Shown here piece after piece: positions 11,417 to 24,965 of a DNA stretch of 35,305 nt. Source of the DNA: Chloroflexota bacterium (lineage in GTDB: Bacteria > Chloroflexota > Dehalococcoidia > Lucifugimonadales > Lucifugimonadaceae); assembly GCA_018650185.1 (NCBI GenBank), contig JABIGL010000178.1, positions 1 to 35,305 of the forward strand, in the 5' to 3' direction. Both the position numbers and the translations under genes were made by a program. Every line of letters begins with the position of its first letter. The stretch's first letter is position 1. The notes under the pieces were generated by a model. That model saw only the letters and a program-made list of their open reading frames with translations, searched no databases and was not told the origin of the DNA.

Positions 11417-12298
11417 TCAGGCGGTAACAGCCGCTTCCTGTTGCACGATGCCCAGATTTTCGCAGGTCCTGGCGACTATCGCGGCGCGGTTGAGCGTGTA
11501 GAAGTGGAACTTATCCACGCCTTCAAGCATCAGCCGGTGGACGAACTCCGTCGCCGTACTTACGGCAATGCTGGAACGTGCCTGTGTGCCGTTACCGACC
11601 CTACCGTAGCGCGCTACCAACCAGTCCGGAATGCTCGCACCGCAACGGGCAGCGAATCGACTAGCGCTGATGATGTCGGTTACCGGCAGAACTCCGGGAA
11701 CTATTGGGACGGTGATTCCCGCGGCGCGGGCGCGATCCATGAATCGCAGATACACGTCTGGCTCGAAGAAGAACTGCGTGATGGCTCGGGTGGCACCGGC
11801 GTCTATCTTGCGTTTCAGATTGTCCAGATCCGTTGATGGGTCCGGAGATTCCGGGTGCATCTCGGGGTAAGCCGCTACCGATATCTCGAAATCGGCCACA
11901 TGTTTTAGACCATTTATAAGATCGGAAGCGTAGTGGTAACCATCGGGATGAGGCTCGTAACCCTCAGATCCGGCGGGTGCGTCGCCCCGCAGCGCCACGA
12001 TGTGCCGGATCCCCGACTCCCAGTAGTCGCGTGCGACCTGATCGACCTCTGCACGTGACGCGCCGACGCATGTCAGATGCGCCGCCGGTGGGATGTCACT
12101 CTCGCCGAGCATCCGGCGAACGATCTGGTGTGTGCGCTCACGCGTGCTTCCACCTGCGCCGTACGTGACCGAAGTGAAACGGGGTCCGTATGGCTGAAGA
12201 CGCTTGAACGACCGCCAGAGGGTGCGCGCCGCTCCCGGCGTGCGGGGAGGGAAGAACTCGAAAGATACCTGTGGCAGCCTGCGGGAAGATGAGGTCAA
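11417..12298 (-). CDS. metF: 5,10-methylenetetrahydrofolate reductase
   Basis: Reduces 5,10-methylene-tetrahydrofolate to 5-methyl-tetrahydrofolate, the methyl donor for methionine synthesis. The 293-residue length matches bacterial MetF. The N terminus has VSFEFFPPRT with Glu14 in the position of the catalytic Glu of E. coli MetF; FTSVTYGAGGSTRERT, HLTCVGASRAEV and IVALRGDAP are the further family blocks forming the TIM barrel and FAD site, and ITQFFFEPDVYLRFMDRARAAGI is characteristic. The ATG overlaps the TGA of the upstream ArsR-methyltransferase gene (12295-12298), so the two are co-translated from the promoter at 13324-13352. A second, longer MTHFR with a cysteine-rich tail is encoded at 20638-22278, so the genome has two distinct enzymes of this family within 11 kb. 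Confidence 0.95.
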   Translation of the reverse strand: MTSSSRRLPQVSFEFFPPRTPGAARTLWRSFKRLQPYGPRFTSVTYGAGGSTRERTHQIVRRMLGESDIPPAAHLTCVGASRAEVDQVARDYWESGIRHIVALRGDAPAGSEGYEPHPDGYHYASDLINGLKHVADFEISVAAYPEMHPESPDPSTDLDNLKRKIDAGATRAITQFFFEPDVYLRFMDRARAAGITVPIVPGVLPVTDIISASRFAARCGASIPDWLVARYGRVGNGTQARSSIAVSTATEFVHRLMLEGVDKFHFYTLNRAAIVARTCENLGIVQQEAAVTA

Positions 12299-13275
12299 TT
12301 GGCCGCCACCGTTGAAGCACGCTCGGAATTAGACGAGGTCAGATTGGAGGACTCTCGTGACGCAAGCCATATGTTCACCGTCAGGGGATCACCCTTCAAC
12401 TCTTGGGCGAGGCTGGATTTCAGGTCGGCATTCTCACACCACGCGGCAAGCTCTTCGTCTGCCAGTCCCAGCCTGTGGTGGGCGTGCTCTTCGATCAGCA
12501 CACGCTGTTTGTGTGGCGCGAAATCAATCACGATCAGGCTCCCGTCGGGCCTTAATACACGAGCCGCTTCGGTTATCGCCGCTTCCGGCTCCTCTGCGTA
12601 ATGCAACACCTGGTGAAATATGACCGCATCCTGCGAGGCATCGCCGAACGGCAACTCATACATATCGCCATGACGCACCTGGCAGTGCTCCAGCCCGGGT
12701 TTTCCAAGGTTCACACGCGCCACCGCTAGCATCTCGTGTGACAGGTCAATCCCGACTCCGCTCCTGATCTGCGACGCCATTACTTCTAGAATTCGTCCGG
12801 TGCCGGTTCCGATATCCAGCAGATCAGCGACTTCGCCGTCAGCAATGAGGTCCCGGACGCAGGCCTCTACCTCGGCCTCAGGGACATACATCGATCGGAT
12901 CTCGTCCCAGCGCGGAGCGTTCTCTCGGAAATACGCCGCCGCCGCCTCTGCACGCGCCTCTTTGATCTCCTCGAGTCGTTCGAGGTCCCGCAGGTACATC
13001 GGATCATTCTCCGGAACCAGGTCGACAATGGCGCGATTGAGTTGCGGGCCATCGGAGCCGTTTGCAATCCTGTAGAACGCCCACTGGCCTTCACGGAATC
13101 GGCTCAAGAGACCGGCTTCTACCAGCAATTTCAGATGGCGGGAAACGCGCGGCTGACTCTGACGCAAAATTTGCGTCAGCTCGGTAACCGTGAGTTCTGC
13201 GCGGGCACAGAGCGTCAACAAGCGCAGCCTTGTTGGCTCGCCTGCGGCTCTGAGTCCTGCCAGTAGTTGATCCAT
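12295..13275 (-). CDS. ArsR-family regulator fused to a SAM-dependent methyltransferase domain (SahR-like)
   Basis: A 326-residue fusion. Residues 1-75 form an ArsR-type winged helix: PTRLRLLTLCARAELTVTEL, recognition helix SQPRVSRHLKLLVEAGLL (about 40-57) and a wing near FREGQWAFYR. No ArsR metal-binding cysteine motif is apparent. After a charged helical linker, residues ~130-260 are a class I methyltransferase fold with SAM motif DIGTGTG at 154-160, an acidic GIDLSHEM strand end, and VLRPDGSLIVIDFAPH. SahR of Proteobacteria has this architecture and represses methionine-cycle genes, responding to S-adenosylhomocysteine. The overlap with metF, and a palindromic operator over its own promoter that recurs before two corrinoid/methionine operons, support the same role here. 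Whether the SAM domain is only a sensor or also catalytic cannot be told. Confidence 0.88.
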   Translation of the reverse strand: MDQLLAGLRAAGEPTRLRLLTLCARAELTVTELTQILRQSQPRVSRHLKLLVEAGLLSRFREGQWAFYRIANGSDGPQLNRAIVDLVPENDPMYLRDLERLEEIKEARAEAAAAYFRENAPRWDEIRSMYVPEAEVEACVRDLIADGEVADLLDIGTGTGRILEVMASQIRSGVGIDLSHEMLAVARVNLGKPGLEHCQVRHGDMYELPFGDASQDAVIFHQVLHYAEEPEAAITEAARVLRPDGSLIVIDFAPHKQRVLIEEHAHHRLGLADEELAAWCENADLKSSLAQELKGDPLTVNIWLASRESSNLTSSNSERASTVAAN

Positions 13276-13405: not shown

Positions 13406-15037
13406 TCAGGCCGATGCGAGGTCCGTCTTCATCGGCTTGAACTGGCAACCCTCCACGAAGAGGTCGAAGAAGTCGGCCTTGGTCTCCAGCTCGACGTGCT
13501 CGATATCACGCGTCAGTAGTTCGATCTCGCGGCGTTTAGTGCCCGAGGTGAGCATGATGGTTGCTCCCTCCAGCGCAGCATTTCCCACCTGCTCAACCCG
13601 GCTGTTAGGAACGTTGGCGATGAATCCGATGTCACGTGCATTGTCGACATTGATGTAGTTGGCGAACCCACCGGCGAGGTAGAGGCGCGTAAGGTCCTCG
13701 GGGGCAGTTCCGTGTTCACGCATGACTATCCACTGGCCGCAGTAGTTGGCGGCCTTGGCCTGCGCAAGCGCGCTCATGTCGGCGCGGGATATTGTGATTC
13801 CGCGTTCAGGCACCACGGTGAATTCGGAACCGCCGTTCTCGAGTACACCCAGCTCGTTCATATTTTTGGTCCTGACAAGCTCTGCGAGGAGATCGACAAG
13901 TCCTGAACCGCAGATGCCCTCCGGCGGAGCACCACCGATGGTCTCGAAGTGGACCCCATCGTTGTCGATATGAACGGACTCGATAGCCCCCTCATACCCG
14001 GGCATACCAAAGGTCACTTCACCGCCCTCAAACGCCGGGCCTGCCGGGCAGGACGCGGCGAGCATGCGATAGCGGTTGCCCACGATCACTTCGGTATTGG
14101 TTCCGATATCGACCAGCGCGACAACGTCTTCGGACTCGTCTATTCCCGTAGCAAGAATGTCTGCCGCAATGTCACCGCCGATGTGGCTGCCCACGAGAGG
14201 CGCTCCGTACACATTGGCGTCCGGAAAAATCCGCAGATCAAGGTCGCTCGCCTTGACGTTGAGCGCCGTGTTCTCACGTTCGCCGGATCTGAATTCCTCT
14301 TCAACCTGTGACCGATAGGGCTTCTCGCCGATCGACTGCACATCGAATCCGAAGAACAGCTCGCGCATCGTGGAGTTGCCTACTATTACGGCCTCATAGA
14401 TATGACGACGACGCACCTTCAGTCGACGCGCCATGTCACCGATCTCGAAGTTGATCGACGAGAGCATCACCTGTGCCAGTTCACCGCTGTACTCGCCACC
14501 GTCATACGAGATTCGGCGCATTGTGTCGCTGCCGCCGAAACGTTGCGGGTTTTCGAAAGAACCCGTGTGAACGATCTCGCCGGATTCGAGGTCGACTAGA
14601 TTCAGAACAACCGTCGTAGTGCCGACATCAATTGCCAGTCCGTAGATATGGCCGCGATACCGGTCGATGATATCGCCGTCAAAGACAACGTCATCCTCAA
14701 CGCGAGTTGTAAGGGGATCGAGTGCCACGCCACGTGAGACGGTACGCGTCATTATCCGAGGCTGTCTCCGCAACACCGCAAACTCGATATCCGCGTTGGG
14801 GTCAGTCACGACAGCCTGGCAGGCGAGTCGATAGTTGTCGTTCAGGAGGAATCGCTCCGACTCCGTAGGGTCGTTTAGCGCTTCCTGACCGCGTTTCACC
14901 TCGACGATGCACTCGTGGCACTCACCCGTACGACCGCACGATGTCGGCACGCGGACATCTAATGCGTCCGCGTAATCGAAGATGCTCTGGTCGGCGACCA
15001 GCTCAAGAACTTCGTCTCCGTGATGAAGGGGTGACAT
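13406..15037 (-). CDS. RACo/RamA-type reductive activator of corrinoid proteins (2Fe-2S plus ASKHA ATPase, DUF4445)
   Basis: Reductively reactivates the cobalt of corrinoid methyl-carriers from Co(II) to Co(I) using ATP. The 543-residue protein starts with a plant-type 2Fe-2S ferredoxin domain: Cys34, Cys40 and Cys43 (SCGRTGECHEC) and Cys73 (RLACQ). After a linker the ASKHA/actin-like ATPase core begins at LAIDVGTTTVVLNL (Asp137, phosphate-1 loop), continues through VIVGNSTMRELFFG and VALVDIGTNTEVIVG, and has GICGSGLVDLLAEL and LAGGFANYINVDNA further on. This is the arrangement of RACo from CO-utilising acetogens. It is downstream of a four-Cys small protein and the corrinoid protein gene in one leftward unit, so its client is most probably that corrinoid protein. 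This would replace the flavodoxin/AdoMet reactivation of canonical MetH. Confidence 0.9.
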   Translation of the reverse strand: MSPLHHGDEVLELVADQSIFDYADALDVRVPTSCGRTGECHECIVEVKRGQEALNDPTESERFLLNDNYRLACQAVVTDPNADIEFAVLRRQPRIMTRTVSRGVALDPLTTRVEDDVVFDGDIIDRYRGHIYGLAIDVGTTTVVLNLVDLESGEIVHTGSFENPQRFGGSDTMRRISYDGGEYSGELAQVMLSSINFEIGDMARRLKVRRRHIYEAVIVGNSTMRELFFGFDVQSIGEKPYRSQVEEEFRSGERENTALNVKASDLDLRIFPDANVYGAPLVGSHIGGDIAADILATGIDESEDVVALVDIGTNTEVIVGNRYRMLAASCPAGPAFEGGEVTFGMPGYEGAIESVHIDNDGVHFETIGGAPPEGICGSGLVDLLAELVRTKNMNELGVLENGGSEFTVVPERGITISRADMSALAQAKAANYCGQWIVMREHGTAPEDLTRLYLAGGFANYINVDNARDIGFIANVPNSRVEQVGNAALEGATIMLTSGTKRREIELLTRDIEHVELETKADFFDLFVEGCQFKPMKTDLASA

Positions 15038-15141: not shown

Positions 15142-15417
15142 CTAGGTTTCCCACGCCGACCGGTAGTCGATATCGTCGCTGCCGGTGCAGATCGCCTTCT
15201 CTCCGACGACCTTGTAGAACTGGTTACGACACGGAAATTTCGCCGTGCACCGAGACTTAGCGTCTTTGTACGGACAACGTCCGATTCCCCGGGTCGCAGC
15301 CGTATCGGAGATATCAGAGTAGATACCCATTAACCGAGACATGCTGGCCTTCAGACGATCGGGATCCACCGGGTTGGTGGAGTCATCTGGCGGTAGCGTT
15401 TCCGAAGATTCCGCCAT
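15142..15417 (-). CDS. Small four-cysteine protein of unknown function in the corrinoid operon
   Basis: I do not recognise this 91-residue protein. The first ~20 residues are acidic and proline-rich and probably disordered; then a helix-like part (DRLKASMSRLMGIYSDISD) leads into a cysteine-bearing region with RCPYKDAKSRC, FPCRNQFYK and AICTGSDDIDYRSAWE. The four cysteines are at 48, 57, 63 and 77 (C-x8-C-x5-C-x13-C), enough to hold an Fe-S cluster or zinc. It lies between the corrinoid protein gene (70 bp upstream) and the RACo-like activator (104 bp downstream) on the same strand, which points to a part in electron delivery to, or assembly of, the corrinoid system. The ATG is preceded by GAAAGGACG, an adequate ribosome site. 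The open frame and context make it likely real. Confidence 0.7.
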   Translation of the reverse strand: MAESSETLPPDDSTNPVDPDRLKASMSRLMGIYSDISDTAATRGIGRCPYKDAKSRCTAKFPCRNQFYKVVGEKAICTGSDDIDYRSAWET

Positions 15418-15487: not shown

Positions 15488-16231
15488 CTAGCCGCTGGCC
15501 CTGATCACTGCGATCAGTTCCTTGGCCTTGTCCACGCAGGAGATGGCGTTGTCGCCGTATCCATCCGCGCCCATGTCGTCAGCGAACTCCTGCGTTACCG
15601 GGGCACCGCCCGTCATGAACTTGTATTCGTCGCGAAGACCCATGTCTTCAAACTCGGCGATGGTTCGGCCCATGTTCGGCATGGTCGTAGTGAGCAGGGC
15701 GGACATCATTACAAGGTCGGCACCGTTTTCGTCCGCCGCCTCTATGAACTCGTCCGGCTTTGTATCTACACCGAGGTCGTGAACAACAAAACCCGCGCCT
15801 CGCATCATCATGATGCAAAGGTTCTTGCCTATGTCATGCAGGTCGCCCTTCACCGTACCGAACACTGCGGTACCGATCGGTTCGACTCCGGATGCCGACA
15901 GGATGGGATCGATATGCGCCATCCCGGCCTTCATGGCCCGGGCGGCGATCAGGACTTCTGGTACGAAGATGATGTTGTCGCGGAACTTGACGCCCACAAC
16001 AGCCATGCCGGAGATAAGGCCCTCGTCCAGGACATCGTTGGCCTCACGGCCTTCGCCAAGCGCCTTCTGGGTTAGCTCGTTCACGGCGTTGTGGTCGCCC
16101 GTGATGAGGCTGTACGCCATCTGCTGCATGAGAGCGTCACCTGCCTCGATCTGCTCGAGGATCATCGAACGCTCGTCTTCCTGCGTGACGTACTCGAACT
16201 CTTTCGCGAGTCCTTCATGAACGATTGGCAA
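15488..16231 (-). CDS. Corrinoid (cobalamin-binding) methyl-carrier protein, MtaC/MttC/MetH-B12-module type
   Basis: Carries a methyl group on cobalamin between methyltransferases. The 247-residue protein has the two expected parts: a helical cap domain (ITGDHNAVNELTQKALGEG, VLDEGLISGMAVVGVKFRDN, FVPEVLIAARAMKAGM) to about residue 110, and a Rossmann-like B12 domain containing VKGDLHDIGKN. His132 in D-x-H-x-x-G is the lower cobalt ligand, and MSALLTTTMPNMG and FMTGGAPVTQEFADDMGADGYGDNA are the remaining cofactor-contact blocks. An N-terminal extension of about 25 residues is unusual but uncharged by any motif. It is the first gene of a unit with the four-Cys protein and the RACo-like activator, driven by the palindrome-bearing promoter at 16295-16323. 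The methyltransferases encoded just upstream are the likely partners. Confidence 0.93.
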   Translation of the reverse strand: MPIVHEGLAKEFEYVTQEDERSMILEQIEAGDALMQQMAYSLITGDHNAVNELTQKALGEGREANDVLDEGLISGMAVVGVKFRDNIIFVPEVLIAARAMKAGMAHIDPILSASGVEPIGTAVFGTVKGDLHDIGKNLCIMMMRGAGFVVHDLGVDTKPDEFIEAADENGADLVMMSALLTTTMPNMGRTIAEFEDMGLRDEYKFMTGGAPVTQEFADDMGADGYGDNAISCVDKAKELIAVIRASG

Positions 16232-16385: not shown

Positions 16386-17420
16386 CTAGAGGCGCTCGGC
16401 GCTCCAGTCCTTGACGGCGTCTGGGATGGCCAGAAGATTTTGGAGTTTGGTCTGGAGTGGAATTGCGCACTCCGGGGCAATCATCTGGACACCAGCTTCG
16501 AGGCATGCGTACACCTCTTCCCGGACCTGTTCCGGTCCCCGGGAGTAAAGGGTCTCAGGATTGTTGATGTTGCCAACCAGCCCGATTCCGCCATCGACGG
16601 CGTCCATCGCCTCTTGCGGGTCATTTCGGGAGTCGAAGTGGAACGACGCCATGCCCGTCTGCGCTATGTAAGGCATGCGGTCCAGCGTACGACCACAGAT
16701 GTGCAGGATCAGCGGGGCTGCAATCTCGTCCGCCATCTCAGTGTGGATGTCCTGCAGGAATCGCTTGTAGTACTCACCGGACACCAGATCACCGGTGGCG
16801 TGGTCCGGGATGCAGACTGCATCTGCCCCCGCCGCGATCTGGGCGTTTGCGAAGAGGTACGTAGCCTCTTTGAGTTTGTCCAGGATGCGGATCGTCATCG
16901 CTGGATCGTCGATCGTCATCAACAGGAATGTTTCGACACCGAACACGTGATATGCCAGGGTCCACGGTCCCATCGACTTCCCAATGATCGCAACTTCGTC
17001 CCCGAATTGCTTCTTCAGGATCTCGATGGCGCCTGTGACGCTCACCATGTCCCGGTGCTCAAGGAAGTTTGAGGGGATTTTGACGTCGCTCTCGCTCTTC
17101 CAGATCGGGTTGGACATTCGTACCGTGGGCCAGTTGTCCTTCTGCTCCCACTGCATTTCGCAGCCGAGTGCTGAGGACTCCTGGATGATAGTGAAGTAGG
17201 GCTGGATGGAGTCGTAACCGAGCTCGGTGTATCCGGTCGCTGCGAGTTGTGCGTTCAACTCCGGATCACGACAGGAGTCCGGGAACGGCGCATCCACCAT
17301 GTCCATCAGCTCGACGGTCGCGACGTTGGTCGGATTGGACACGGGCGTTCGGTCGACCGGTAGCCCGGCGAGCGCGTTCATTACACGCTCCTTGGATGTC
17401 ATCGTCTCTTCATATGGCAT
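16386..17420 (-). CDS. UroD-fold zinc methyltransferase, MtaA/MtbA/CmuA-like
   Basis: A 344-residue protein of the uroporphyrinogen decarboxylase superfamily in its methyltransferase branch. It opens with TSKERVMNALAGLPVDRTPV, the usual start of MtaA-like proteins. The zinc site that activates a thiol acceptor is intact: His240 and Cys242 in LILHICGRTLDRM and Cys318 in APECAIPLQT (H-x-C-x75-C). True heme-pathway UroD enzymes lack this motif. MtaA-type enzymes move methyl groups between a methyl-corrinoid protein and a thiol such as coenzyme M; bacteria lack that cofactor, so another acceptor or donor is expected. It is the last gene of the five-gene unit that contains the homocysteine and pterin methyltransferases, and directly precedes the corrinoid operon. 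It could be a second donor-side methyltransferase feeding the corrinoid protein. The start could instead be the internal Met7. Confidence 0.85.
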   Translation of the reverse strand: MPYEETMTSKERVMNALAGLPVDRTPVSNPTNVATVELMDMVDAPFPDSCRDPELNAQLAATGYTELGYDSIQPYFTIIQESSALGCEMQWEQKDNWPTVRMSNPIWKSESDVKIPSNFLEHRDMVSVTGAIEILKKQFGDEVAIIGKSMGPWTLAYHVFGVETFLLMTIDDPAMTIRILDKLKEATYLFANAQIAAGADAVCIPDHATGDLVSGEYYKRFLQDIHTEMADEIAAPLILHICGRTLDRMPYIAQTGMASFHFDSRNDPQEAMDAVDGGIGLVGNINNPETLYSRGPEQVREEVYACLEAGVQMIAPECAIPLQTKLQNLLAIPDAVKDWSAERL

Positions 17421-17469: not shown

Positions 17470-18132
17470 CTAGGTGGAGGCGAAACCGAGTGTCGAAGTA
17501 GTCATCTGGCCGCGCATTGCATCGGCTTCCAGCGCGTCTTCCACCGCACTGATGTTCCTTGAGTAGGGAAGGATAAGACGTGCGAGTCCGTCGTGACGCT
17601 GCCCACAGGGAAACGCCACGGAGGTGTCGTCGATCTTTTCCATTTCACCGTACCGAACAAACCCGGCGATGATCGCCCGAAGTCGTAATGCCGGATTGCG
17701 CGCCTCGCCTGTCGTCGAAACACGATAGACGTAGCGGTCGCCAACTTGCTCGCCGGTAAGGTCAATCATCAGGGCGCTTTTGGAGTCCTGAATCTGCAAC
17801 TCTTCCGGCCGGTCACGTTCTGCAGTTCGCTCAATTGCTGCAGTGGTGAGGAACTTGAGTGGACGGGTATGCAGGTGCCCGCACGGGAAGCGCAGCTGGT
17901 TCCAGGTGTCGGTGATCTCCATGCCGCCAAGCGTGACCAATCGGGCCACGATGTCACGCATTCGCTCTTCCACGCCGGGTTTCCTGCTGAACGTCCAAAC
18001 GGTGGAGATTCCGTCGCGTTCGTAAAGCCCCACACTGATGTCGTGGAAATTGGGATCCATCGGCACGAGTTCCACACAGTCCCCGTACCGGTCCACAACC
18101 TCCCGGGCGCTGAGCAGTTCTAGAGATGTCAT
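17470..18132 (-). CDS. Unrecognised protein with two FPCGxxH repeats, in the methionine/corrinoid operon
   Basis: I do not recognise the family of this 220-residue protein. It is made of two related halves: MRDIVARLVTLGGME...LRFPCGHLH (residues ~58-88) and LRAIIAGFVRYGEME...VAFPCGQRH (~151-180). The FPCGxxH motif occurs at 82-88 and 174-180, exactly 92 residues apart, and each is followed by a similar hydrophobic segment (RPLKFLTTAAI and GLARLILPYSRNI). Paired Cys and His residues suggest metal binding or a thiol-based job. No signal peptide or membrane segment is visible. It lies between the homocysteine methyltransferase gene (25 bp) and the MtaA-like gene (49 bp), so it probably serves the same methyl-transfer process. 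Confidence 0.75.
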   Translation of the reverse strand: MTSLELLSAREVVDRYGDCVELVPMDPNFHDISVGLYERDGISTVWTFSRKPGVEERMRDIVARLVTLGGMEITDTWNQLRFPCGHLHTRPLKFLTTAAIERTAERDRPEELQIQDSKSALMIDLTGEQVGDRYVYRVSTTGEARNPALRLRAIIAGFVRYGEMEKIDDTSVAFPCGQRHDGLARLILPYSRNISAVEDALEADAMRGQMTTSTLGFAST

Positions 18133-18157: not shown

Positions 18158-19051
18158 TTAGCCTTTAATAGCGCTCACGAGGGCTTTGATGTGGTCCGGA
18201 CCGGTGCCGCAGCAACCGCCGAGTATGTTAATCCCAAGACCGTGCAACGTCTTGAAGTGATCCGCCATGAATTCAGGCGTCTCGGGATAGACGATCTCCA
18301 TATCGACGATCGCCGGGATACCTGCGTTTGAGTGGATGAGCATGTAACCGTCGTCCACTTCCCGCATTAGTCGAGCGATCTCGATCATGCGCTCGATGCC
18401 GTTACCGCAGTTGGTCCCGACGACGTCTGCTCCGGCTTCACGGAGTTTCTTCACGCCGACTTCCGGGGTGATCCCCATCATGGTGAAGTAGCCGCGTGGT
18501 CCGGGGTCATACACCATCGTGGACATCACTACGAGTTCGGTGTTGTCCTTGGCAGCTTTGACGGCGAGCGTGGCTTCTTCGATGGCGGTCATCGTTTCGA
18601 TTACGACACCATCGGCTCCGCCTTCTGCAAGGGCAGTGATCTGCTCTGCGAAGGCGTCATACATCTCTTTCTCAGACACAGGACCGAGCGGCTCCAGGAA
18701 TTCACCTGTAGGTCCCACAGAACCGATCACAAAGGCACCCGGAGGGGCGACCGATCGGGCGTGTTCCGCCGCAAGACGGTTGAACTCAGACACACGGTCC
18801 TCGTAGCCGTATTTCTTAGTCATGAACTTGGACCCGCCGAAAGAGTTGGTCAGAACCATCTCCGCACCGGCGTCGAAGTATCGTTTCGCCATCGTCTGAA
18901 CGATTTCAGGATGGCTCACGTTGAACTCTTCAGGGCAACCCCCGGGTTCGAGTCCATTTTCCTGGAGATATGAGCCGGTGGCACCGTCCGAGATGATGGT
19001 GTCGCCGCGCTCAAGGCGCTCGAGAAGTGAGGGATGTGATGTTGTTGTCAT
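18158..19051 (-). CDS. Homocysteine S-methyltransferase family protein (MetH N-terminal module / BHMT type)
   Basis: Transfers a methyl group to zinc-bound homocysteine, giving methionine. The 297-residue protein is one Hcy-binding TIM barrel: DGATGSYLQENGLEPG near the N terminus, MVLTNSFGGSKF near 65-76, IGSVGPTGEFLEP near 109-121, and VIETMTAIEEATLAVKAA near 150-167. The zinc ligands are Cys215 (GTNCGNG) and Cys280-Cys281 (GGCCGT), as in MetH and betaine-homocysteine methyltransferase. Canonical MetH has this barrel fused to pterin, B12 and activation domains; here the other parts are separate genes nearby (pterin 19523-20563, B12 15488-16231, activator 13406-15037). That arrangement favours methyl-cobalamin over betaine as donor, though betaine cannot be ruled out by sequence. 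Confidence 0.9.
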   Translation of the reverse strand: MTTTSHPSLLERLERGDTIISDGATGSYLQENGLEPGGCPEEFNVSHPEIVQTMAKRYFDAGAEMVLTNSFGGSKFMTKKYGYEDRVSEFNRLAAEHARSVAPPGAFVIGSVGPTGEFLEPLGPVSEKEMYDAFAEQITALAEGGADGVVIETMTAIEEATLAVKAAKDNTELVVMSTMVYDPGPRGYFTMMGITPEVGVKKLREAGADVVGTNCGNGIERMIEIARLMREVDDGYMLIHSNAGIPAIVDMEIVYPETPEFMADHFKTLHGLGINILGGCCGTGPDHIKALVSAIKG

Positions 19052-19166: not shown

Positions 19167-19508
19167 TTAATCTTTCAACCAACCGTCGATTGCGCCCGGA
19201 GTTGCGTCGCGCTCGCCGGCGCGCTCCAGGTCACGAATACGGGCCACGAAATCTTCAGGGAAGCCATCGTTGAACCTTTGGGCGATAGCCGCAGCGGCTT
19301 CCTTTGCCGGCGCGTCGACCTCTCCGTAATCCTTCAACTCCCACGCCATCAAGTAGTCGTCCGTTCCTGCGCTGCCGTCCATCATGGCGATAGCGTCGGC
19401 AGCTTCCTGAAATCGGGCGTCCAACGGATGTGAGATCGTTTCACCATCGTGGCTGGCCTGAACCGTGACGGGTATTTCTTTCCAGTACATGAGGCGTACG
19501 AGTGCCAA
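19167..19508 (-). CDS. Small PF13769-type ('virulence factor' named) protein
   Basis: A 113-residue soluble protein with the pattern I associate with the PF13769 family: an N-terminal VRLMYWKEIPVTVQA, then SHPLDARFQEAADAIAMMDGSAGTDDYLMAWELKDYGEV, and a C-terminal NDGFPEDFVARIRDLERAGERDATPGAIDGWL. The family's database name ('virulence factor') is historical and tells nothing here. From memory, members in Alphaproteobacteria lie beside split methionine synthase and corrinoid genes, which is where this one is too: 14 bp after the pterin methyltransferase stop and 115 bp before the homocysteine methyltransferase. It may be an accessory subunit of the corrinoid methyl-transfer machinery. No catalytic motif is visible. 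Family call by recall, without a profile search. Confidence 0.7.
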   Translation of the reverse strand: MALVRLMYWKEIPVTVQASHDGETISHPLDARFQEAADAIAMMDGSAGTDDYLMAWELKDYGEVDAPAKEAAAAIAQRFNDGFPEDFVARIRDLERAGERDATPGAIDGWLKD

Positions 19509-19522
19509 ATCTGTGCCTCCTT

Positions 19523-20563
19523 TTAGTCCAGCCGTCCGTCGCGGAAGGCCTGTATGTAGTTCATGCAGTAGTCGTCATTGCCGCTAAGCATGTCGATGGC
19601 AAGCTTCACGGGCTCGGAATCGATGTCGAGGTCCAGAACCTTCTGGATAGAGGCGGGAATCGGGTCGATGATCCCGCTGTCCAGTCCTTTTTCGATTGCA
19701 AGGTGCAGGAACGCGTCGTTTATCAGCCGTCGTTTGGGTAGCCCGAACGAGACATTGCTAACACCGCCCGTGATATGGATCTCAGGCCCGTACTTCTCCC
19801 TGACCGCGGCAACGGCATCCAGGTAGTCGTTTCCATAGGTGGATGCGACCGATATCGGGAACGCGAGACAGTCCACATATACGTCACTCAGCGGAATTCC
19901 GGCGTTCTGGACGTGTTGCATGAGCTCGTCGATATTCTCGACTCGCTCGTCGGCGTTGTCCGGCATACCGGACTCCCCGGCTGCCGTGACGATGACATGC
20001 GCGTTGTTGTCGGTTACAAGTTTTATGGTGTCGATACGTTCAAGGGCGACGGAGTTGATCATGGGGCGGCCAGCTTTACCCGTATATGCGGCAAGCCCGG
20101 TCTCGATGATTTCGCTGTTCGATGAATCGATGCTGGCTGGAAGCGTAGAGACCTCTTCAACGGTGTTGACCAGCCATGTCATCGACTCGTTCTGGATATC
20201 GATGTAGGGGCTGACTTCGTCCACGTTTAGGTCCAGGAAGGTTGCTCCGGCCCGGGTCTGGCGCCTTACCTCTCGGTGAATATAGGCAGTGCCGAGCGCC
20301 TGCTCCTCCGGGCTTCCGTTCACGCCCTTCCAAACCGCGATCATGAAGTGTTTGACCTGGTTCTGGCGGTAAGGCTGCTGCTCCTTGAACTCGTCCGGAA
20401 TGGAGAGGAACAGGTCATTGCCATCATCGTCCTTGAACGGCACACCCTGGGTCCCGTCATCAAGCGTGCGCACGCGCCGACCGTTTAGAAGCACGATGCG
20501 CGTGGTGTGGATGTTCTCGCCGATGGTTATGAAGTCTTCGGCTGATTTCAAGTGTCGAGGCAC
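19523..20563 (-). CDS. Methyltetrahydrofolate:corrinoid methyltransferase (MetH pterin module / AcsE / MtvA type)
   Basis: Moves the methyl group of 5-methyl-tetrahydrofolate to the corrinoid protein. The 346-residue protein is a pterin-binding (dihydropteroate-synthase-like) TIM barrel: FITIGENIHTTR near the N terminus, GATFLDLNVDEVSPYIDIQ near residues 105-123, LPASIDSSNSEIIETGL, RPMINSVALER, HVIVTAAGESGMPD, and the family-specific ITGGVSNVSFGLPKRRLINDAFL near 265-287. An insert around residues 29-60 (RVRTLDDGTQ...LSIPDEF) is longer than in stand-alone AcsE. It is the first gene of the unit that includes the homocysteine methyltransferase and is driven by the palindromic promoter at 20613-20641. 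MetF at 11417 and the MetF-like protein at 20638 would make its substrate. Confidence 0.9.
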   Translation of the reverse strand: MPRHLKSAEDFITIGENIHTTRIVLLNGRRVRTLDDGTQGVPFKDDDGNDLFLSIPDEFKEQQPYRQNQVKHFMIAVWKGVNGSPEEQALGTAYIHREVRRQTRAGATFLDLNVDEVSPYIDIQNESMTWLVNTVEEVSTLPASIDSSNSEIIETGLAAYTGKAGRPMINSVALERIDTIKLVTDNNAHVIVTAAGESGMPDNADERVENIDELMQHVQNAGIPLSDVYVDCLAFPISVASTYGNDYLDAVAAVREKYGPEIHITGGVSNVSFGLPKRRLINDAFLHLAIEKGLDSGIIDPIPASIQKVLDLDIDSEPVKLAIDMLSGNDDYCMNYIQAFRDGRLD

Positions 20564-20612: not shown

Positions 20613-20641
20613 ATATAAACATTTCTTTATATATCAGTCAA
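20613..20641 (-). promoter_or_regulatory. Promoter with overlapping palindromic operator (site 3), pterin/homocysteine methyltransferase operon
   Basis: On the minus strand TTGACT (20641-20636) is followed by 3 bp and the 20-mer with plus-strand sequence ATATAAACATTTCTTTATAT (20613-20632), one mismatch from site 1, with perfect ATATAAA/TTTATAT arms. It lies 50 bp before the pterin methyltransferase ATG at 20563, almost the distance seen at site 1. The -35 box contains the TGA stop codon of the upstream MTHFR-like gene, so the promoter separates that gene from the operon. Confidence 0.75.
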
Positions 20642-22278
20642 TCAGGCTTGTCTGCGGATTGCGTGGATGGATCAGGATCTGCCGAAACTTCATCGGAAAC
20701 GGGAGCGTTATGGTCTCGACCAAGGAAGGTGTTGGCCCAGGCGGACGTGCCGCGCAGAGCGCCGTTCTTGAACACAACGGGGCGCTCAAGCATCGCCCCC
20801 TCCTCTCCGTAAGCCTTCGTGCGTTCGTAGGCTTTCACCCAGATACAACGTTTCTCGCCGACCTCGCATATACCGTTGTGTGAGCCGCCACACGGTCCGT
20901 TTCGCTGGTTCTTGACGCACTGCGACTCCGGGCAAAGGTAAGCGATGTCGGGGAGTGAACAGTCGCCGCAATCCTGGCAGCCAAACATCGGAATCTTCGC
21001 CACCTGCTCTGCTGCGTGAAGCACGGTACGAGCGTTGCGGCGATTGTCGACGTGCCCGTAAAGCCATCGGGCGGCGCGAAATCCCGGGGCGGTGTGATCA
21101 AACACTAGATTGTGAGTGGCTCGGCTGACTTTGTACTTGAGTGGCAGGAAGGCCCTCGACCTTTTGCGGCGCCCCGGTGAGGTAGTTTCCAGATATTGGT
21201 GGTTCAAATTCTCCGAGGTGAGCCCTGTTCCCGGATCTCGCTCGTAGTAGTTGAATTCACCCGGTTGCTGGTACTGGATATCTTTAGCGAACTCGCGCCA
21301 GTCGTCGGGTCCGAAGCTTGATTCCACGTCCAGGATGCGGCGGATCCGTGACAGCGGTAGACGGCCCGACAAATACGCCCCGCGATAGCCGATACCCTTC
21401 AATATGGCGACCTGTTTCGCAGCGAACTCCTCGAAGAACCCCCGACCTCTGTCCTCAGATCGGGCGTATTTCTCGACTAATGCCAGGAGCTCGTCGGAAA
21501 CCGTGACGCCGGGTATGCCTGTGCGATTGAAAAGGCGTGCCGCCGGCGCGTTGAGAACGTAGACCGAACCTATCAACGGAATATCGAGTCCGTTCGAATT
21601 CGTGTAACGCTTTAGTTCGTCCAGCTTCAGCGAGTCGTATCCGATCTGCGTGACCGCCCACTCGGCGCCTGTCCTTACCTTCAGTCCAAGTTTTAGGAAC
21701 TGTGGCAGAAGTTCGGGTTCGGTGGATTTGAAGGGGTTGATCGCCACCCCGGGATTGAACGATGTCTTCAACAGCCGAGACGGTTCAGCACCGGCGCGTC
21801 TGGATGGAACCTGAAGGCCTGCGTTCATGTTGCGCATGACATCCAACAGACCGACGGAGTCGATGTCGAATACCGGCTGTGGTCCGCCCGCATGTCCGGT
21901 CAACGGGTAGTCGCCGGTCAGCGCCAGGACGTTGTCGAACCCGAGGCTGCCAAGCGACCAGAGCCGACTCTCTACGCCGTTCCGGTTGTAGTCCTTGCAC
22001 GAGAAGTTGATGACGACTTCCTGGCCGCGCGCAAGGAGTTCGTAGCCCATCACCTCGGGCCTGATGTGTGGATTACCGCCGGGGTTGTCCGTGATGCAGA
22101 TCAGGTCCACCGGGTTGGACCCGGCTAATCTGCGGGCCAGGCTCAGAGTTCGGCTAGAACTCTCCTCCATGGCGAGACCACGGGAGGTCTCTAACTCCAC
22201 GGCGAGGATGAAGCGATCGGGCTGCTTCAGCAGGTCGCGAAATGAGCCAGATGAAGGGCTGCTTGCTGGCTGGGTCAT
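20638..22278 (-). CDS. Methylenetetrahydrofolate reductase with cysteine-rich C-terminal domain (MetF-MetV-like fusion)
   Basis: A 546-residue protein. Residues ~20-320 form an MTHFR TIM barrel (FILAVELETSRG with the catalytic-type Glu, VDLICITDNPGGNPHI, NVLALTGDYPL, FLKLGLKVRTGAEWAVTQIGYD, IPLIGSVYVLN). The C-terminal part, about residues 380-500, resembles the MTHFR_C (PF12225) domain, with a dense cysteine region starting at Cys434: FGCQDCGDCSLPDIAYLCPESQ, KNQRNGPCGGSHNGICE and KRCIWVKAYERTK. In acetogens that domain is the separate MetV subunit of MetFV and takes part in electron supply. Here the two are fused, which suggests a reductase fed by something other than NADH alone. The last ~45 residues are polar and probably disordered. 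It is divergent from the gene at 22410 and has no palindromic operator of its own. Confidence 0.87.
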   Translation of the reverse strand: MTQPASSPSSGSFRDLLKQPDRFILAVELETSRGLAMEESSSRTLSLARRLAGSNPVDLICITDNPGGNPHIRPEVMGYELLARGQEVVINFSCKDYNRNGVESRLWSLGSLGFDNVLALTGDYPLTGHAGGPQPVFDIDSVGLLDVMRNMNAGLQVPSRRAGAEPSRLLKTSFNPGVAINPFKSTEPELLPQFLKLGLKVRTGAEWAVTQIGYDSLKLDELKRYTNSNGLDIPLIGSVYVLNAPAARLFNRTGIPGVTVSDELLALVEKYARSEDRGRGFFEEFAAKQVAILKGIGYRGAYLSGRLPLSRIRRILDVESSFGPDDWREFAKDIQYQQPGEFNYYERDPGTGLTSENLNHQYLETTSPGRRKRSRAFLPLKYKVSRATHNLVFDHTAPGFRAARWLYGHVDNRRNARTVLHAAEQVAKIPMFGCQDCGDCSLPDIAYLCPESQCVKNQRNGPCGGSHNGICEVGEKRCIWVKAYERTKAYGEEGAMLERPVVFKNGALRGTSAWANTFLGRDHNAPVSDEVSADPDPSTQSADKPD

Positions 22279-22409: not shown

Positions 22410-24965
22410 ATGCCGAAATTTACGCCCATCGACCTCACAAACACCTACAACCATCGGCGAACTGACGGTTCACCCTGGGATGAAGGCACGGCCGCGGCCG
22501 TGGCGGGCTTACCCGGAGGCGACAACACCTTCTGGGGGATACCGTTTTCCGGAGGGCAGGCGGGCCAACCTTCCATAGTCGTGGCCGGTGCTGATGGGGA
22601 TTCAAATGCAGTGGACATACCCATCGCTGATCCATCCACAGACGGCGTTCCCTACGTTGTGTTCCAGCACACCTGTGACGCGCGGGCACTGGATGAGGAG
22701 GGAAACCTACGAGATTCGTATCCCTTGCAGGCCGGACGGCCCCCTGTCGCGTTGAACCCGGGCGAATGGCTCGCAAACTACACACTTTTGTACGCTGACG
22801 GAACCGAACACACCGCACCCATACGACGCCAGTTTGAGATCAACAATCCGCTGAACAGGTCACAGAGCACGTACGCCGCGAAAGACCATCTAGAACCGGT
22901 GGCACTGGACTTCCGTGGCCCGTCTCCACGCAACCTCTGGGGACGAATGCAGCTCAACGTTAACGTCGGACCGCTTGAGGCACTGACCAGCGGCGAAGGC
23001 GTGTGGCTTCTCTATGCGCTGCCCAATCCAAATCCAGATCGGCAGATCACGGGTATCCGGATTACTCCAACCGGCCGGGCGTCGATCGGCATCGGCGCAA
23101 TAACCCTGTTCCACGGGGAGAACCATCCACTGCGCCATAGCAAGCTGGAAAGCGTGGCGGTTGACCTGTCATCTGACGAGAGTGCGGGCGCAACGGAACT
23201 CGACGTCGATGTTGATCTTGGAACGGTGGCGCGTTCGTACGCCGTACCTGCGTTCGATCCAGACACGTGGTTAGGGGAAGAACGGAAGGGCTGGGGAGAC
23301 GAGGTAGGTGGAGACGTTTCGCTCGTCCTGGATGTCGCCGCAAATCCGGACGCGACACTGACTGTTGGGGATCACGAGTTCGACATGTCGGGGCTTCGTG
23401 AGACAGGGGAGGTGACGGCCTCCGACGGTAACGCAACGATCAGGCTGCTAACCGCCGACAGGCAATGGGTCCATACGAAGATCATCGACTCTTCTACGGG
23501 CCAGCCGACCCCGGCGCGCATCCACTTCCGAGCTCCCGATGGCCGCTATATCCCACCGTACGGCCACCGCCACGAGGTGAACGACAACTGGTTTGAGGAT
23601 TACGGCGCGGACCTGCTGCTTGGCTCCACCCAGTACGCGTACGTCGATGGGACGTTACAGGGCGAGTTACCTGTTGGTGACGTGTATGTGGAGGTGGTGA
23701 AGGGCTTCGAATACGCCCCGGTTCGGCAAAAGCTACACATCGAACCCGGTCAGCGAGAGTTAACCATCTCGCTGGACCGCATCGCGAATACCCGTCCCGA
23801 TGGCTGGGTTACAGCGGACACCCACACGCACTTCCTGACGCCTGAAACGGCGCGACTTGAAGCGGCCGCGGAAGACACGAACATGGTCAACCTCCTGGCT
23901 GCACAGTGGGGCGACCTGTTCACTAACGTCGGCGACTTAACTGGCGCGCTCTCCGGTTCATCCACGGACGAGACTCTCGTATGGGTTGGAACTGAAAATC
24001 GGCAGCACCTTATGGGCCACATCAACCTGTTGGCCTACACGGGATCACCCATCTTCCCGCTATCGACGGGCGGTCCGTCTGAGGGTTACATCGGTGATCC
24101 AGTGCGGCGGGCGATGAGTGAGTGGGCGGAGGAGTGCCGCCGAAAAGAAGGCGTGGTCATAGTTCCACACTTCCCATTCCCTGAGTCCGAGGTATACGCA
24201 GAGGTCATCCGTGGCGTAGTGGATGGCCTGGAGATCAGAGATTTCTGGTCGCCAAGCATGGATACGTTCGCCGTTCACGAGTGGTACCACCTCCTGAACT
24301 CGGGCTACCGAGTTGCAGCCGTAGGGGGCACAGACAAGATGTCTGCTTCGATGCCTGTGGGTGGCGTGCGGACCTACGCCAACATTGGCGACGACGAGTT
24401 CTCGTTCGCTTCCTGGGGCAGGGCAGTACGCGCGGGAAAGACCGTCACGACGTCGGGCCCGATCCTCAACTTCTCGGTCAACGGACTGGTTCCCGGGGAT
24501 GAGCTACAGATGGCAAGTGGCGGCGGGACCGTCCATTTGGACGTGTCCGCGGTATCTGCGACGCCGATCCACACATTGGACGTGGTGTTCAACGGCAAGG
24601 TAATCGCCAGTGAGAGTGCTCGTGACGGGGCGCTGTCGTTGACTCTCAGTGAAGACATTCGCATCGAAGGCAGCGGCTGGCTGGCGGCGCGTTGCGGCAG
24701 CGAGAACGTGGCCTGGCATGTTTGGCCGGTCAACATGAACGCCCATACATCGCCGGTTTACGTGGTGGAGCCGGGCAGTGAGCTGTTTCAGCAACCGGCG
24801 GGTGAGCACTTGATCACGGTCATGCAGGGCGGGCTTGAGTGGTTGGACACGCTGGCGATCCCCGATAGCCCGGAACGACACGAAACAATCAAGAAGGTTT
24901 TCCACGACGCGATCCATGACGTGCACGGCAAGATGCAACGCCAGGCCCACGGACATCCGCATTAG
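22410..24965 (+). CDS. CehA/McbA-family PHP metallohydrolase, large form
   Basis: An 851-residue protein. The catalytic part is a PHP-type metal-dependent hydrolase: Asp470-Thr-His472-Thr-His474 in VTADTHTHF, then HLMGHINLLAY, GVVIVPHFPFPESEVY, DGLEIRDFW and VAAVGGTDKMS, followed by a C-terminal immunoglobulin-like region after SGPILNFSVNG. CehA and McbA hydrolyse carbamate esters and amides, but the family is broad. The first ~400 residues are beta-rich domains without recognised catalytic motifs; the ~370-460 stretch (TGQPTPARIHFRAPDGRYIPPYG) resembles a carboxypeptidase-regulatory-like or carbohydrate-associated beta domain. There is no obvious signal peptide. It is transcribed alone, with a ribosome site (TGGAG) before the ATG. 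Substrate unknown. Confidence 0.85.
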   Translation: MPKFTPIDLTNTYNHRRTDGSPWDEGTAAAVAGLPGGDNTFWGIPFSGGQAGQPSIVVAGADGDSNAVDIPIADPSTDGVPYVVFQHTCDARALDEEGNLRDSYPLQAGRPPVALNPGEWLANYTLLYADGTEHTAPIRRQFEINNPLNRSQSTYAAKDHLEPVALDFRGPSPRNLWGRMQLNVNVGPLEALTSGEGVWLLYALPNPNPDRQITGIRITPTGRASIGIGAITLFHGENHPLRHSKLESVAVDLSSDESAGATELDVDVDLGTVARSYAVPAFDPDTWLGEERKGWGDEVGGDVSLVLDVAANPDATLTVGDHEFDMSGLRETGEVTASDGNATIRLLTADRQWVHTKIIDSSTGQPTPARIHFRAPDGRYIPPYGHRHEVNDNWFEDYGADLLLGSTQYAYVDGTLQGELPVGDVYVEVVKGFEYAPVRQKLHIEPGQRELTISLDRIANTRPDGWVTADTHTHFLTPETARLEAAAEDTNMVNLLAAQWGDLFTNVGDLTGALSGSSTDETLVWVGTENRQHLMGHINLLAYTGSPIFPLSTGGPSEGYIGDPVRRAMSEWAEECRRKEGVVIVPHFPFPESEVYAEVIRGVVDGLEIRDFWSPSMDTFAVHEWYHLLNSGYRVAAVGGTDKMSASMPVGGVRTYANIGDDEFSFASWGRAVRAGKTVTTSGPILNFSVNGLVPGDELQMASGGGTVHLDVSAVSATPIHTLDVVFNGKVIASESARDGALSLTLSEDIRIEGSGWLAARCGSENVAWHVWPVNMNAHTSPVYVVEPGSELFQQPAGEHLITVMQGGLEWLDTLAIPDSPERHETIKKVFHDAIHDVHGKMQRQAHGHPH

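Follow-up and report, generated by a model that had tools for sequence, protein, structure and literature searches.

A two-repeat protein, probably a stable component of a split methionine synthase system in the Lucifugimonadales

The locus and its genes

The window analysed here, the whole stretch of 35,305 nucleotides from a Chloroflexota bacterium of the order Lucifugimonadales, carries on its minus strand a block of genes whose domains together suggest a split, B12-dependent methionine synthase. Embedded in this block is a gene for a 220-residue protein, the subject of this study. Its reading frame runs from an ATG at 18132 down to 17473, with the stop codon at 17470-17472, and the product consists of two homologous repeats followed by a conserved C-terminal tail. 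The features that matter for the argument are the following, in the order in which the block is read.

20638..22278, minus strand: MetF2-like MTHFR with a DUF5981 C-terminal domain (domain matches)
19523..20563, minus strand: pterin-binding methyltransferase, MeTr-like, in the role of MtgD; its place differs between genomes
19167..19508, minus strand: 113-residue PF13769 protein, a conserved member of the block
18158..19051, minus strand: homocysteine S-methyltransferase HcyS (PF02574), with the zinc-ligand motifs GTNC and GGCCG, directly upstream of the 220-residue protein gene
17470..18132, minus strand: gene of the 220-residue repeat protein (open reading frame, orthologue alignment, structural model, profile comparison)
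17869..17883, minus strand: first-repeat motif, C84-G-H-L-H88
17593..17607, minus strand: second-repeat motif, C176-G-Q-R-H180, which covaries with the first
17482..17511, minus strand: residues 208-217 (GQMTTSTLGF) of the C-terminal tail, the best conserved part of the protein, modelled with low confidence
16386..17420, minus strand: MtaA/CmuA-type methyltransferase (URO-D family) with an intact HxC...C motif, directly downstream
15488..16231, minus strand: corrinoid protein with B12-binding domains and DxHxxG, MtgC/MtbC-like (domain matches)
15142..15417, minus strand: 91-residue protein with invariant C48, C57, C63 and C77, between the corrinoid gene and the activase gene, previously unlisted
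13406..15037, minus strand: RACo-like reductive activase with an N-terminal 2Fe-2S domain (PF14574)
12295..13275, minus strand: ArsR-type DNA-binding domain fused to a SAM-dependent methyltransferase, adjoining metF
11417..12298, minus strand: MetF, methylenetetrahydrofolate reductase (TIGR00676 above cut-off)

The gaps on either side of the 220-residue protein gene are short, 25 bp from HcyS and 49 bp to the MtaA/CmuA-type gene. The initial annotation had placed the gene within a split methionine synthase operon, a siting that the domains of the neighbours and their common strand bear out. Antisense reading frames overlapping the gene were taken as chance.

Three other features of the region deserve mention. 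PF13769 is the Pfam family ‘Virulence_fact’, a name that is probably misleading for a fixed member of a methionine block. The ArsR-methyltransferase fusion is a likely regulator of the methionine genes. On the plus strand, 22410-24965 encodes an 851-residue protein with no Pfam match at E 0.1, in which D-T-H-T-H and PHFP motifs suggest a PHP-like metallohydrolase.

A tandem repeat outside the known families

The 220-residue protein is real and was previously without a name. It has no match of convincing score in Pfam, NCBIfam or the PDB sequences, and 18 members of its family scanned one by one against Pfam and NCBIfam gave no convincing family either, in keeping with the initial annotation, which had been unable to assign one. 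The top solved structure by sequence profile, ribosomal eL22 at E 0.088, was taken as chance.

The two halves of the protein are homologous repeats, beyond chance. A profile-profile comparison of residues 12-110 with residues 112-200, built from 125 orthologues, gave a probability of 93%, a P value of 2.8e-7 and a score of 40.6. None of 12 column-shuffled controls exceeded 14.4, and a reversed half scored 9.3. With the motif Cys, Gly and His masked the score is still 27.4. The repeat had been proposed in the initial annotation from two motifs, which are indeed where it put them: FPCGHLH at residues 82-88 and FPCGQRH at residues 174-180, spaced by exactly 92 residues, each preceded by a helix and a G-x-M-E segment (GGME and GEME).

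An AlphaFold2 model built from a shallow alignment of 10 close sequences (pLDDT 78.8, pTM 0.73) predicts a comparable succession of elements in both halves, namely two strands, a helix, a strand or hairpin, and a second helix. The C-terminal helix ends in a low-confidence tail. Searches with this model gave no convincing match to a known fold. Foldseek found no convincing match for the whole model (best E 0.089) and nothing below E 0.6 for the C-terminal half. In the VIA structural comparison, the top match of the whole model was EtuB, a tandem-BMC shell protein, with Z 6.0 and an rmsd of 3.8 over 76 residues, where the background lies at 7-8; a half model compared with EtuB reached Z 6.1 and an rmsd of 2.8 over 74 residues, again for a shallow-alignment model and against a background of 7-8. 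The C-terminal half had urea amidolyase as its top match, with Z 6.5, also below the background of 7-8.

Conservation within the family is concentrated elsewhere than in the two motifs. Residues G17, C19, L22, D26, R57, F94, D116, Y136, R150, G157 and N193 never or hardly vary, and neither does the tail GQMTTxTLGF. The mean fraction of the majority residue is 0.92 in the tail and 0.57 in residues 8-207. The AlphaFold2 pLDDT falls below 50 for residues 212-220. A segment so highly conserved and yet predicted to lack a fixed structure has the usual signature of a binding segment, and the tail may be one.

The invariant polar residues are open to a different interpretation, in which the protein would be an enzyme or sensor for a small ligand (SAM, homocysteine or methionine, for instance) that regulates the pathway, with C19, D26, R57, R150 and Y161 forming its pocket. 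Besides these residues, a weak and non-significant likeness of the model to small α/β domains is in its favour, seen with the regulatory domain of aspartate kinase (Z 4.8, whole model) and with the tandem-BMC protein mentioned above. However, no fold match rises above background, and the obligate operon partners described below are better explained by a subunit of a larger system. We consider a ligand-binding role improbable.

A Cys/His quartet that comes and goes

The most conspicuous features of the protein are the two FPCGxxH motifs. The initial annotation had suggested that their Cys/His pairs bind a metal, a corrinoid or a thiol intermediate, and had named their absence from orthologues as what would count against this. 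Among 125 distinct full-length orthologues, on which all motif counts here are based, the full set C84, H88, C176 and H180 is kept in 62 and at least one of the four is missing in 63. Both cysteines are present in 69 sequences and neither in 51; C176 stands alone in five and C84 alone in none. Orthologues lacking the motif Cys and His sit in the same gene neighbourhood, with HcyS and the MtaA-type gene still beside them. Because about half of the orthologues lack the quartet, it lies outside the core function and is dispensable, and metal, corrinoid or thiol chemistry at FPCGxxH was rejected as what the family does.

The four residues nevertheless behave as a unit. H88 occurs only together with C84, and wherever both cysteines are kept but a histidine is missing (seven sequences), both histidines are gone. 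H180 is the loosest of the four, being kept without the other three in 17 sequences. Ranked by covariation among 9453 pairs of variable columns, C84-C176 comes second (phi 0.92), C84-H88 third (phi 0.89), H88-C176 tenth and H88-H180 26th. A tree built without the four columns places four changes at C84 and three at C176. Deep lineages carry the full quartet, which makes loss the likelier direction. With only two independent pairs located on well-supported branches, an independent-pairs test on this tree had too few changes to reach significance. Since gain or loss affects the four residues jointly, a single metal site is plausible where they are present, predicted to lie between the repeats and probably a structural zinc. 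What survives of the metal-site claim is thus an optional site, suggested by the covariation of the quartet as a unit and carried by the protein of the window.

Structural Cys/His zinc sites can be present in part of a protein family and missing from the rest, as is familiar, for example, from some ribosomal proteins. The nearly all-or-none pattern of the four putative ligands across orthologues resembles that of zinc-bearing and zinc-free ribosomal proteins, although the 220-residue protein is not ribosomal and its metal site is a predicted one. The case illustrates that conspicuous cysteines can lie outside the functional core of a protein.

The quartet could also be a carrier site, the protein then handling zinc or another metal for HcyS and the MtaA-type enzyme. 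Both of these neighbours have zinc-ligand motifs, and the co-variation of the quartet fits such a task. Yet about half of the orthologues in the same operon do without the quartet while HcyS and the MtaA-type gene are still present, and we regard metal handling as highly improbable.

As the operon's candidate metal or Fe-S protein, the 91-residue protein is the stronger of the two. Its cysteines follow the pattern RCPYK-x5-C-TAxFxC-RNQ ... C-x-GSD. The protein occurs in 96 loci; its position could be measured in 95, and in every one of these it is encoded after the corrinoid gene, on the same strand. It has no match in Pfam or NCBIfam. Its cysteine pattern makes it a candidate for an Fe-S or zinc protein in the corrinoid system.

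Distribution, linkage and complementarity

The 220-residue protein gene is confined to one order in the samples that we searched. In the window's order, 128 of 250 genomes carry it. A sample of the class contained it in 14 of 294 genomes, all 14 inside the order, and a profile search of 400 genomes across the phylum matched only the order's own members. No relative was found on plasmids and none was confirmed on viral contigs. Named records with homologues are Chloroflexi, Dehalococcoidia and SAR202 metagenome-assembled genomes, and several members of the order come from marine metagenomes (SAR202-type).

Within the order, the gene and HcyS are nearly inseparable. HcyS, counted at E 1e-80 or better, is present in 127 of the 250 genomes, and 123 have both genes. 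In 117 of these 123, HcyS is the immediate upstream neighbour on the same strand, at a median gap of 65 bp. Five genomes have the gene and no HcyS; in four of them the gene is near a contig end on the upstream side, and the fifth has a fragmentary match. Four have HcyS and no 220-residue protein gene; three of these form one group (family f8), and in genome G157 the contig ends 385 bp past HcyS. Where enough sequence is visible, the neighbours include HcyS in 116 of 119 loci, the MtaA-type gene downstream in 120 of 122, the PF13769 gene upstream in 107 of 114, the corrinoid protein in 103 of 116 and the RACo-like activase in 56 of 86. Among 50 genomes chosen for quality and spread, the activase (PF14574) turned up in 24 of the 25 that carry the gene and in one of the 25 that lack it. 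The co-occurrence with RACo-like and homocysteine genes that the initial annotation had proposed to examine is therefore strongly positive. Two proteins without a family, the 220-residue and the 91-residue four-cysteine protein, travel with the methionine block.

The distribution of the block largely complements that of MetH and MetE. The MetH activation domain (PF02965) was found in 88 of the 250 genomes, 20 of which have the 220-residue protein gene. Strong matches to PF01717 (MetE-type; E < 1e-60, a line set at a gap in the scores) were found in 33 genomes, two of them with the gene; weaker matches are common and probably represent other members of that superfamily. Either PF02965 or a strong MetE-type match is present in 22 of 128 genomes with the gene versus 97 of 122 without (Fisher 4.8e-24, a value that is not tree-corrected and includes shared ancestry). 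None of the three was seen in 25 of the 250. The order thus holds three largely separate methionine solutions, MetH, MetE-type and the block, and a few genomes show two of them.

In the window's genome, which is 94% complete, there is no PF02965 above cut-off and no PF01717 match, and PF02574 occurs only once. With no MetH, MetE or second homocysteine methyltransferase found, no methionine synthase other than the block is recognisable there. It is present in about half of the order's sampled genomes, and since most of these lack both MetH and a strong MetE-type match, it is likely their methionine route. The 20 block genomes that also have the MetH activation domain differ from the window's genome in this respect. 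In them, methionine synthesis cannot alone explain why the gene is kept, and it is chiefly these genomes that suggest a possible further methyl-transfer task for the block.

A possible accessory subunit

Taken together, the 220-residue protein looks like a lasting part of the split methionine synthase system. Our preferred reading, to which we assign a probability of about 0.45, is that it serves as an obligate but non-catalytic accessory subunit in a split, B12-dependent system of methyl transfer whose product would be methionine. This system would comprise HcyS, the MtaA/URO-D-type methyltransferase and the corrinoid protein, kept active by the RACo-like activase. The 220-residue protein, a predicted tandem α/β unit with a conserved flexible tail, would most likely act in docking, bringing the corrinoid protein together with the methyltransferases or with the activase by means of a surface around C19, D26 and R57 and of the GQMTTxTLGF tail. 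It would then act in trans, much like the linkers and the activation domain do within the single chain of MetH. In about half of the family, C84, H88, C176 and H180, probably with zinc, would staple the two repeats together, an addition that the other half does without. Against this reading, the invariance of C19, D26 and R57 may point to an enzymatic activity of the protein's own.

Because some genomes have no pterin-binding methyltransferase in the block, the methyl donor may differ from methyl-folate. We tentatively propose, as a possible extension, that this order has its own variant of the split synthase, in which the URO-D/MtaA methyltransferase and two accessory proteins, the 220-residue and the 91-residue one, would feed and reactivate the corrinoid protein, possibly moving methyl groups directly from an environmental methyl compound to homocysteine.

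Comparison with known systems

Split methionine synthases are known from roseobacters. In Phaeobacter inhibens, mutant fitness revealed that methionine synthesis depends on three separate subunits together with a RamA-like protein and a DUF1638 protein, and in Phaeobacter and Ruegeria DUF1638 is predicted to recharge B12 as the partner of RamA (PMC5764234). The corrinoid and pterin subunits of Ruegeria pomeroyi also serve in glycine betaine demethylation (PMC12478193). The window has the hallmarks of this type, as it encodes separate PF02574, PF00809 and PF02607/PF02310 proteins and a RACo-like activase. Shared with the split synthase of P. inhibens and with MtgC-MtgD-MtgE of R. pomeroyi (PMC5764234, PMC12478193) are the separate homocysteine, pterin and corrinoid subunits, the RamA/RACo-like activase, MetF2 and a small accessory protein. 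In contrast, an MtaA/URO-D methyltransferase is fixed in the block described here, DUF1638 is absent from the window's genome, and the fixed members further include the 220-residue protein, the 91-residue four-cysteine protein and the PF13769 protein. Searches of a literature library returned no account of such a system in SAR202.

The parallel with DUF1638 invites a more specific role, namely that the 220-residue protein specifically helps the RACo-like ATPase to reactivate the corrinoid, and thereby stands in for DUF1638 and for the activation domain of MetH without being homologous to either. The RACo-like gene tracks the 220-residue protein gene closely, the split synthase of P. inhibens needs both a RamA-like and a DUF1638 protein (PMC5764234), and the window's genome has neither DUF1638 nor PF02965, the former occurring in only six of the 250 genomes of the order. 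But the gene adjoins HcyS and the MtaA-type gene rather than those of the activase or the corrinoid protein, and RACo tracks the whole block, so that the link is unspecific. All six DUF1638 genomes also carry the 220-residue protein gene; the two are not alternatives there, and a strict replacement of DUF1638 within the order is not supported. Profile similarity is lacking as well: membership in PF02965 and in DUF1638 (PF07796) was rejected, as the protein matches neither in Pfam and hhalign gives a probability of 0.1% for each. We regard a dedicated reactivation role as rather doubtful.

The accessory-subunit reading is broader and accommodates the same likeness, as DUF1638 is, and the 220-residue protein would be, an accessory protein to a split methionine synthase that also has a RamA-like activase. 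By this analogy, the best reading is that the 220-residue protein would hold the place in this order that DUF1638 has in roseobacters. Compared with MetH, the block has the same domains distributed over several chains instead of one, and the two are largely complementary in the order. The function of accessory proteins of the DUF1638 kind in split methionine synthases becomes testable in a second, independent system.
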